Below, piece after piece: positions 16,812 through 19,139 of a stretch of DNA of 64,000 bases (positions are counted from its first letter, which is position 1; every line of letters begins with the position of its first letter). The position numbers were made by a program, and so were the translations under genes. The stretch comes from Thermococcus peptonophilus (GTDB taxonomy: Archaea; Methanobacteriota_B; Thermococci; Thermococcales; Thermococcaceae), in the NCBI RefSeq assembly GCF_001592435.1, contig NZ_CP014750.1, forward strand, positions 124,001 through 188,000, written 5' to 3'. Under the pieces are notes generated by a model that was not told the DNA's origin, searched no databases, and worked only from the letters and a program-made list of their open reading frames with translations.

Positions 16812-17794
16812 TGAGGTTTATGCGGTTCGGCCCTTCAATCCTGTTTTTACGGACCCCCCACCCTGAGGCGGTCAGCGAAGGCATCACGAAGATATTCGGA
16901 GTTGAGCCAATTCCAACGGATCAGGCAATCAAGGATAGCAGTGAGTTTGAGACCCTTCTCTTTGTCACCGCCGAATGGCAGAAGGAGACGATACCTCCCG
17001 AGGTGGGGTTTTTAATAAGGGACTCTGCCCGCTCTGTTCTGGCAGCCATCATAAACAACGACCTCCCGATAGAGAAAGTCCACGTGGAGAGTACGATAAT
17101 ATTCCTTAGAGTTCCTGAAAAAGTCGAAGAAGCCCTGAAGTTCCTGTCTGAGGAGCTCAACGGCGAAGTAATGTCGCTTAGGGATGCTCTTGATGAAGGC
17201 GAAGCCCGAGACACTGTTATAGCGGTGACAAGAAAGAGACTCTCCTGTCCTATCGGACCAGAGGAAGTCGAGGGTGCAGTCCTCGTCAGGGAGCACTTCC
17301 TGAAGGTATACCGCCGCTTGAGCATAGAGGCGCCAATGCTCCTCCTCAAGCTGATGTCGGAGTGGAATGAGGTCACAATAAAGATTTATGACACAGCGAA
17401 GAGGTACGAAGAGAACATCTCAAGGCTCATGATGGTTCTCGAAGACCTCGACCTCGGTTTCGTTGTTGGCGAAGGCTGGGACTGGGATCATCCTAGGCCG
17501 TTCATGCGCGTTCCCGTTTACAAGCTCAAGCTCCTGACGTGGGAAGACCCGGTAAAGGTGAAGTTCTTCCTGAAGGGTCTCGAATACAGGGGCTACAACA
17601 GGTTCTGCGATATAGACGTCTTCGTGGGAGGGAAGAAGATAGACTGGATAAAGCTCGGGAAGTTCGACTCTAAGTTTGAGCTGGCAAAAGCCGCGAGGGA
17701 AGAGCTGGAAAAACACCTGAGCGAGGACGTAAAGAAAAGGCTGCACGAGATTGAAGAGGAGCTTTTGAAGGAAACCAAGGAGGAAAAGAGCTAG
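16811..17794 (+). CDS. Uncharacterised protein coupled to phosphoesterase
   Basis: Soluble protein of 327 residues that I do not recognise. It begins with a hydrophobic strand (FGPSILFLRT), has several charged alpha/beta segments and ends in a long, highly charged helix (residues about 285-327, rich in Glu and Lys). There are two cysteines, one in LSCPIGPEEVEG near residue 142 and one in NRFCDIDVFVGG near 262. There is no signal peptide or membrane helix. The ATG at 16811 overlaps the phosphoesterase stop (TGATG); GTG 16808 is an alternative. The 3' end overlaps the convergent RNA methyltransferase gene by 4 nt. Coupling with the phosphoesterase suggests a shared nucleotide or RNA substrate, but this is only inference. 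Confidence 0.75.
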   Translation: MRFMRFGPSILFLRTPHPEAVSEGITKIFGVEPIPTDQAIKDSSEFETLLFVTAEWQKETIPPEVGFLIRDSARSVLAAIINNDLPIEKVHVESTIIFLRVPEKVEEALKFLSEELNGEVMSLRDALDEGEARDTVIAVTRKRLSCPIGPEEVEGAVLVREHFLKVYRRLSIEAPMLLLKLMSEWNEVTIKIYDTAKRYEENISRLMMVLEDLDLGFVVGEGWDWDHPRPFMRVPVYKLKLLTWEDPVKVKFFLKGLEYRGYNRFCDIDVFVGGKKIDWIKLGKFDSKFELAKAAREELEKHLSEDVKKRLHEIEEELLKETKEEKS

Positions 17795-18720
17795 AGCTTC
17801 TTAATCTTCGCAACGAAGAAGCCGCTCGTCCCGTGCCTGTCGGGATAGAAGCGCCTTGCCTTCTTTATCTCCTCGCTCAGCTCAATGCCGAAGGGCTTTG
17901 TCAGGGCCGGCTCGCCGTACCGAAGGGGGAGAAGTTCAACATCAAAGTTGTCCAGAACCCACTGGATAACTAGCTCGTTCTCCTCGGGCTCAAGGGAGCA
18001 TGTGGAGTAAACCAGGACGCCGCCTTTTTTGAGGACACTCAGGCCCTTCTCAAGGAGCTTCATCTGGAGGCCCTGGCAGAACCTCACGTCTTCCATTGTC
18101 CTGTTGGCTTTTCTCTCAGGGTTCTTGTGGATAGTTCCAGAGCCTGTGCAGGGTGCATCGAGGAGGATTTTGTCGAACTCAATGCCTAGTTCATCTATGT
18201 GGAGAGAAGAGCTGTGGAAGAGGATTGTATTGGTAACGCCCAGCCTTGAAAGGTTGAGCCTTGTCTCCTTCAGCCTGTCCTCGCCAACATCGAAGGCGTA
18301 GATTATCCCTTCGTTCTCCATCAGCTGGGCCATGTAGGAAGTCTTCCCGCCGGGGGCGGCGGCCATATCGGCGACGACTTCACCGGGCTTTGGGTCAAGG
18401 GCAACGGGGGGATACATGGAGCTCGCTTCCTGGATGTAGAGAAGGCCGCTTAGATATTCAGGGGTCGAGGTTATCGAGAACGGCTCCCTCGTGAGGCAGA
18501 AGCCCTCCCTCGCCCAGAGGACGCGTCTGAACTGGAAGCCCTTCTTGTTGAGGAGCTTCGTGAGCTTTGGAACTTCTATCCTAAGAGTGTTAACGCGGAA
18601 GCACCTCGGCAGAGGTCTTTCCATGGCCTCAGCTATCGCTAAGGCCCTCTCGCCCCAGAGCTGATAATAGCGCTCCGCGAAGGTCTTTGAGTAGCCGAGG
18701 GAAAACAACTTTTCGAGCAT
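17791..18720 (-). CDS. RNA (cytosine-C5) methyltransferase, NOP2/RsmB/NSUN family
   Basis: SAM-dependent m5C methyltransferase of 309 residues for tRNA or rRNA. It shows the full set of family motifs: AAAPGGKTSYMAQL (SAM site), FDVGEDRLKETRLNL, DAPCTGSGTIHKNP with the release cysteine in PCTG, and VLVYSTCSLEPEENE with the catalytic cysteine in STCS. The N-terminal FRVNTLR marks the start of the RNA-binding part; no PUA domain is evident, so it resembles archaeal Trm4-type enzymes. The promoter has TTTTAAA at 18741-18747, placing the transcript start at about the ATG, so the mRNA is probably leaderless. Three phased palindromes lie just upstream of this TATA box. Confidence 0.92.
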   Translation of the reverse strand: MLEKLFSLGYSKTFAERYYQLWGERALAIAEAMERPLPRCFRVNTLRIEVPKLTKLLNKKGFQFRRVLWAREGFCLTREPFSITSTPEYLSGLLYIQEASSMYPPVALDPKPGEVVADMAAAPGGKTSYMAQLMENEGIIYAFDVGEDRLKETRLNLSRLGVTNTILFHSSSLHIDELGIEFDKILLDAPCTGSGTIHKNPERKANRTMEDVRFCQGLQMKLLEKGLSVLKKGGVLVYSTCSLEPEENELVIQWVLDNFDVELLPLRYGEPALTKPFGIELSEEIKKARRFYPDRHGTSGFFVAKIKKL

Positions 18721-18740: not shown

Positions 18741-18750
18741 TTTAAAAGGT
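18741..18750 (-). promoter_or_regulatory. TATA/BRE of the RNA methyltransferase gene
   Basis: On the minus strand ACCTTTTAAA reads as a BRE-like purine/C edge followed by a TATA box. Its centre is 24-26 bp from the ATG at 18720, the normal archaeal spacing for a leaderless transcript. The palindromic array begins 7 bp further upstream. Confidence 0.6.
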
Positions 18751-18756
18751 TCGCCG

Positions 18757-18846
18757 TTTGTGAAAGTCCCACTTTCATAAATCGGCCTATTTGTGAAAAT
18801 GCACTTTCACAGATCACGCCTTCTATGAAAGTCAACTTTCATAAAA
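18757..18846. repeat. Three phased palindromic repeats (operator-like array)
   Basis: Three copies of a dyad with arms TGAAAGT and ACTTTCA lie at 18761-18777, 18794-18809 and 18826-18841; the third extends to TATGAAAGT-CA-ACTTTCATA. Copy 2 has one arm mismatch (TGAAAATG-CACTTTCA). The left arms start 33 and then 32 bp apart, close to three DNA turns, so all copies face the same side of the helix. The flanks also repeat in part (TTTG before copies 1 and 2, ATAAA after copies 1 and 3). The array ends 7 bp upstream of the methyltransferase TATA/BRE and downstream of the small helical gene. An operator for a dimeric regulator fits best; RNA hairpins are an alternative. Confidence 0.7.
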
Positions 18847-18875: not shown

Positions 18876-19139
18876 TCAGACCCTCCGGAGCTTGCCTAGC
18901 TCCTCCCACCTTCCCTCCCTCACCAGCTCGACCGCGTAGGTGTAGAGGCCGAGTCTAAGAAGGTTCTCCAGCGTGGGGTCTTTCCTCGAGAGCTCTTTAA
19001 CGGCGGAGGAGAGCTTTTGAAGGGCTTTCTCCCTGGTCTTCTCGGAGTAGTCGGCGAACTCGATGGCCTGGAGGACGGAGAGAACTTCGAGGAGAGTCTG
19101 TTTACCCCACTCCCTCTCGCGGTCGATGAACTCCATCAT
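18876..19139 (-). CDS. Small helical protein of unknown function
   Basis: Protein of 87 residues, almost entirely helical and charged, with no cysteines or membrane segment. The first ten residues, MMEFIDRERE, resemble the opening of archaeal AAA ATPases of the MJ-type family (F-x-D-R-E-x-E), but no Walker motifs follow. It may therefore be a truncated relic, a small partner protein, or unrelated. A clear TATA-like element TTATATATAA at about 19154-19163 would start the transcript near the ATG pair at 19139/19136. There is no overlapping partner gene, so a toxin-antitoxin arrangement is not supported. Confidence 0.65.
   Translation of the reverse strand: MMEFIDREREWGKQTLLEVLSVLQAIEFADYSEKTREKALQKLSSAVKELSRKDPTLENLLRLGLYTYAVELVREGRWEELGKLRRV

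Follow-up and report, generated by a model that had tools for sequence, protein, structure and literature searches.

A palindrome array before an RNA methyltransferase gene of Thermococcus peptonophilus is probably the solitary operator array of a mobile ATPase gene

Three palindromes ahead of an RNA methyltransferase gene

We analyzed a stretch of 64,000 nucleotides from the genome of Thermococcus peptonophilus (the window). On its reverse strand lies the gene for a 309-amino-acid RNA m5C methyltransferase of the NOL1/NOP2/sun family (17791..18720; TIGR00446, 296 bits with a cut-off of 210). The gene's promoter (18741..18753, reverse strand; BRE 18748-18753, TATA box 18741-18747) reads GAACC-TTTTAAA on the gene strand. 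This is the native form, which is also found in species that lack the array described below. Farther upstream on the same strand is an 87-amino-acid open reading frame (18876..19139), which is the truncated C-terminal stub of a family of proteins of ~230-350 amino acids. Profile searches matched it to no Pfam or NCBIfam family. Across this family, the C-terminal ~85 amino acids are constant and the N-terminal part is variable. The genome also contains a paralogue of the stub (G000:C1:1405602-1406465), a full-length relative that adjoins another ATPase gene.

Between the stop codon of the 87-amino-acid frame and the methyltransferase's BRE/TATA are three palindromes, all given for the reverse strand. 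Palindrome 3, the promoter-proximal one (18757..18781), has the core TGAAAGTCCCACTTTCA at 18761-18777; its extended unit on the gene strand is TTTA-TGAAAGTGGGACTTTCA-CAAA, and it corresponds to copy 3 of the ATPase arrays discussed below. Palindrome 2 (18790..18813) has one mismatch in its core (18794-18809, TGAAAATGCACTTTCA). Palindrome 1, the distal one, is at 18822..18845 (core 18826-18841, TGAAAGTCAACTTTCA). The starts of successive palindromes are separated by 33 and 32 bp and their centres by ~32 bp; ~7 bp lie between the end of the array and the BRE. The complete symmetric unit is ~24 bp, TTTRTGAAAG-YNNR-CTTTCAYAAA, and 8-bp gaps give it a 32-bp period; the window has three copies of this repeated unit. 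The preliminary description of this locus, with three TGAAAG(T)-N-ACTTTCA palindromes of which one is mismatched, had the coordinates and the spacing right. It was also right that the array does not match the TGM motif: its sequence differs from the TGM and TrmB-type operators of Thermococcales.

A whole-genome search for TGAAARTN{2,3}ACTTTCA found exclusively these three sites in the 1.9-Mb genome, and the expected number of exact matches in shuffled windows was 0. If two mismatches are allowed, the other matches in the genome are single and dispersed, and the total (7, versus 5 in a reversed control) is about background. A one-mismatch copy at C1:100051 appears to be due to chance, as it lies inside coding-like sequence with no gene after it. 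So the motif is clustered at one locus instead of being scattered at random, which would have spoken against an operator. The suggestion that the array is operator-like stands in that the array is real, periodic, symmetric at the level of DNA (see below), and kept at the orthologous locus in some relatives. But we rejected the idea of a regulon operator, because the motif is found at only one locus in this genome.

The array accompanies an AAA_14-DUF4143 ATPase gene

We inspected the neighborhoods of motif matches in 94 Thermococcaceae genomes. A related methyltransferase is present in all 94 and the motif in 42. Arrays with 32-bp steps occur in two settings: before the methyltransferase, or farther upstream. 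In 14 genomes (including the window's), the methyltransferase is immediately preceded by two or more copies, with centres near -49, -81, and -113, and two further genomes have a single copy there. In other genomes, the array is ~1.4 kb or more upstream, mostly directly before another gene. The preliminary description had suggested looking for conservation before the orthologous gene or before a common set of genes. A set of relatives does keep the array before the methyltransferase, but roughly two thirds of the genomes have no array ahead of the orthologue. And instead of a common gene set, we found a single gene, which is present in 15 of the 94 genomes.

This gene encodes an ATPase of ~439 amino acids with AAA_14 (PF13173), winged-helix, and DUF4143 (PF13635) domains. 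The protein matches the PADLOC profiles for PDC-S01 (1.9e-30), which is a single-gene candidate for antiviral defence whose C-terminus is PD-(D/E)XK-like. All 15 genomes with an orthologue (at least 71% identity) have the array directly upstream of it, with the 32-bp period (in G068, just two palindromes are visible because of a contig edge). The TATA box of the ATPase gene (CTTATAAACT) sits between the last two palindromes, and the last copy ends 3-4 nt before the ATG. In six genomes (G001, G008, G009, G045, G082, and G083), the ATPase and the array are located away from the methyltransferase; the array thus accompanies the ATPase. A fragment of the methyltransferase's promoter is present downstream of the ATPase's stop codon in G001 and G009; therefore, the cassette moved from this locus. 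A relative of the ATPase from Aciduliprofundum (56% identity) has the same motif in the same place. The phage and plasmid collections yielded only remote homologues, with under 60% identity.

These comparisons change the view that the array is the operator of the RNA methyltransferase. This does not seem to be its primary role, since the array goes with the ATPase gene even at loci with no methyltransferase. Control of the methyltransferase is still possible in genomes that lack the ATPase, given how the half-sites are conserved there (see below).

Two minor observations concern the ATPase gene itself. The Aciduliprofundum orthologue (L174 2929-4126) has stops in the aligned frame, so it is a frameshift or a pseudogene in that assembly, and its palindrome array is intact. 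Also, the last codons of the ATPase (AGGTCAATATGA/TAA) show few synonymous changes in 14 orthologues (L139-L152, L171, L173), and codons farther upstream are more variable. Possibly, the 3' end of the cassette is constrained at the level of DNA.

We also considered that the repeats might be RNA hairpins (a leader, a terminator, or the 3' end of argF) or a recombination site. The array often follows argF, and we take the spacer CGGCCT to resemble the core of archaeal dif sites. However, where argF is distant, the array remains with the ATPase or the methyltransferase, and it is separated from argF in several genomes, so it is not a 3' element of argF. Departures from symmetry would pair as A.C as often as G.U (26 vs 24; 17 vs 20), and because they show no preference for G-U over A-C, the symmetry is at the level of DNA; there is neither strand-specific wobble pairing nor a relevant match in Rfam. 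As for recombination, the spacer sequence is not conserved between arrays. Overall, we consider these explanations to be very improbable.

Other ATPases of the family have their own palindromes

Paralogous ATPases have other palindromes, which are arranged in the same way around the TATA boxes of these genes. Their half-sites include TTGGTAAT/ATTACCAA, TTGATA/TATCAA, TGAGAACT/AGTTCTCA, TTTGCAGT/ACTGCAAA, TTTGGTCATT/AATGACCAAA, TTGGTACG-type, and TTGCCGAA-type sequences, among others. Pairs of palindromes that share a half-site and are spaced by 30-36 bp precede 26 of 60 paralogues and 1 of 194 control genes (p = 7e-18, which is overstated because the paralogues are not independent, although the layout recurs in many clades). 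In shuffled sequences, the mean was 0.08 per 60. A stricter count that requires perfect 7-nt arms undercounts the paralogues' operators (17/60 vs 7/153), so we prefer the paired test. Homologues from Methanosarcinales have arrays of yet another palindrome, also with a 32-bp period; for instance, at least five near-identical TTTGGTAACTACGATTACCAAA palindromes precede the ATPase gene at 32-bp spacing in L177 (1-3001).

The recognition helix of the ATPase and the half-site vary together by clade. In one clade, the change from SHV to AHT in the recognition helix accompanies the change from TTGATA to TTGATT. Together with the recurrent layout, this pairing is our main reason to propose that each ATPase binds its own promoter, and it gives indirect support for binding via the winged helix. 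Alternatively, an unlinked third protein could in principle bind the arrays of both the ATPase and the methyltransferase, so that the ATPase would be just another target. This might explain why arrays persist without the ATPase. However, it seems inconsistent with every ATPase clade having its own palindrome that changes with its own recognition helix, with the motif accompanying the orthologue into another archaeal phylum, and with the motif's presence at a single locus in the T. peptonophilus genome. We think this alternative is improbable.

The predicted structure of the ATPase (mean pLDDT of 75) has an AAA+ core, then the winged helix, and then the strands of DUF4143. We found no sequence match to the ATPase in the PDB. 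The best fold matches of the model are ORC/Cdc6 and RuvB, in which a DNA-binding winged helix likewise comes after an AAA+ domain. These matches are weak, with TM-scores of 0.2-0.3 over the query, and the ATPase has an additional nuclease-like DUF4143 domain. Still, the model supports this order of domains, which agrees with our proposal.

In the native setting, three to four palindromes with a 32-bp period flank the ATPase gene's own TATA box. We propose that dimers of the ATPase bind these palindromes from one face of the DNA, through the winged helix. Occupation of copies 3 and 4 would block the BRE/TATA and the start site, and the ATPase would repress its own promoter until it is released.

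Repression of a defence locus from tandem palindromes is known. RptR represses the promoter of its own defence locus from three palindromes that overlap the -10 box (PMC12255303). Like RptR, the C-proteins of restriction-modification systems, and antitoxins, our proposal has a DNA-binding protein from a defence locus, autorepression, and tandem palindromes (PMC12255303). But those proteins are dedicated regulators, while the likely binder here is the effector ATPase itself, with an internal winged helix. Also unlike RptR-type operators, the ATPase arrays are at an archaeal TATA promoter, have a 32-bp period, and persist elsewhere as solitary arrays. The operators of TGM, TrmB-type, and other sugar regulons of Thermococcales are also palindromes near a BRE/TATA, but besides the difference in sequence, our array is at a single genomic locus and has no regulon.

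According to PMC12988326, PDC-S01 joins an ATPase to a PD-(D/E)XK domain and ranks fourth in frequency among the defence systems of prokaryotes, and most candidates of its kind still await experimental validation. The main text of that paper does not mention palindromes or operators. The array-owning ATPase resembles this COG1373-type system in matching the PDC-S01 profiles as well as AAA_14 and DUF4143 from Pfam, while the window has the array alone, with no ATPase gene. In the open-licence literature, we found one paper that mentions DUF4143, nothing on operators of the AAA_14-DUF4143 family, and no report of the regulation or the trigger of PDC-S01-type ATPases. So although autorepression from tandem palindromes has a precedent in RptR, we found no prior account of such operators for PDC-S01-type ATPases. 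These ATPases are very widespread among archaea and bacteria. Operators at their promoters suggest that the ATPase genes are silent until a signal releases them. And because the operators are specific to each clade, they predict the DNA that each ATPase binds, which provides a basis for an in vitro assay.

Origin and present role of the solitary array

The three palindromes in the window are the counterparts of copies 1-3 in the ATPase arrays. Palindromes 2 and 3 are separated by 16 nt (CAAATAGGCCGATTTA) that recur unchanged in the ATPase array of G031 and differ at one position in that of G001. The array together with its 5' flank corresponds to the cassette in these two genomes, where longer relatives of the 87-amino-acid stub precede the ATPase arrays. 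After copy 3, the native promoter of the methyltransferase takes the place of the ATPase's TATA box. In the window, the array is not directly before an AAA_14-DUF4143 gene and has no TATA box between its last two copies. Because the ATPase gene, the fourth palindrome, and the ATPase's TATA box are missing, we view it as a solitary relative of the ATPase arrays and not as a complete one. Searches of the genome, which is 99.9% complete, gave neither an ATPase homologue at E ≤ 1e-3 nor a DUF4143 match above the cut-off. A weak match to DUF4143 (20 bits, below the cut-off) comes from a 463-amino-acid ATPase, but this protein fails to align with the orthologues.

We propose that the array is the operator array of a mobile ATPase gene of the AAA_14-winged-helix-DUF4143 type (PDC-S01) and that it is solitary in the window because the ATPase is absent. 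From the genome comparisons, we give this a probability of roughly 0.78. In the most likely version, loss of the ATPase gene orphaned an autoregulatory operator, which is still under selection; copies 1-3 would have been left before the methyltransferase's native promoter. Loss is the simplest reading of the solitary state. In the tree of the methyltransferase and argF, genomes with the ATPase, with a solitary array, and with no array are intermixed. G036, which has an intact solitary array, is nested within an ATPase-bearing clade, and in G054 the ATPase is decaying and the array is eroded. However, solitary alleles retain the native BRE (GAACC), which most ATPase alleles at this locus lack, so simple deletion from present ATPase alleles cannot explain every solitary array. 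Recombination may have been involved, or the array may be older than the ATPase at this locus. Solitary arrays suggest that regulatory DNA from a mobile gene can stay behind in front of a host gene for RNA modification.

Does the solitary array have a function now? About 20 related genomes without an orthologue of the ATPase retain solitary arrays from the methyltransferase locus. A comparison of these arrays shows 6-8% divergence in the half-sites and ~50% in the inner and spacer bases (we chose copies with at most two mismatches, which biases the comparison towards conserved half-sites). At the same depth, fourfold sites in the methyltransferase differ at 0.3-0.6. Among four sister genomes, all with solitary arrays, 1 of 36 half-site positions changed, versus 31 of 52 other sites (p = 3e-5), and for the closest three genomes the counts are 0/36 and 10/52 (p = 0.012). 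So the half-sites appear to be constrained in these genomes without the ATPase. Conservation in species that lack the ATPase implies another reader or selector, or else conspecific strains that carry the ATPase.

If there is another reader, then a regulator other than the ATPase might bind the solitary array and control the methyltransferase's promoter, which is compatible with an origin from the ATPase. Besides the conserved half-sites and the many arrays kept without the ATPase, the nearly constant distance from the array to the TATA box fits this idea, as does the fact that the array stays by the methyltransferase when argF has relocated. But we have no candidate for the regulator, and the signal of selection could stem from the conspecific strains. 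Also, with the array missing before so many orthologues, control of the methyltransferase is not essential, and in G048, G067, and G059, an insertion separates the array from an intact methyltransferase gene, which argues against an essential role there. We therefore hold this view tentatively.

Or the solitary array could be leftover promoter DNA from the ATPase, with no function now. The array's presence is patchy, loss is nested inside ATPase-bearing clades, G069 and G060 have one-palindrome relics, the array in G054 is eroded, and T. peptonophilus itself has no homologue of the ATPase. However, the half-sites have diverged far less than the inner and spacer bases of equal depth, and arrays tend to be either intact or gone. 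A functionless remnant seems rather unlikely to us. More broadly, we speculate that archaeal PDC-S01 ATPases repress themselves via clade-specific, helically phased arrays that are read by their own winged helices, and that one such array was left behind and recruited, without the ATPase, before a Thermococcus m5C methyltransferase, where another factor maintains the selection; this combined scenario is doubtful as a whole.

In G041, a lone TATGAAAGTCTACTTTCATA palindrome (L020, ~1501) lies just before a gene that resembles a TrmB-type helix-turn-helix regulator, and the motif may be used independently here. In G067, TGAAAGTTAACTTTCA (L027, ~726) is composed of the last part of a CRISPR-like repeat (GTTGCAATAAGACTCTATGAGAATTGAAAG) and its spacer and is unrelated to the array.
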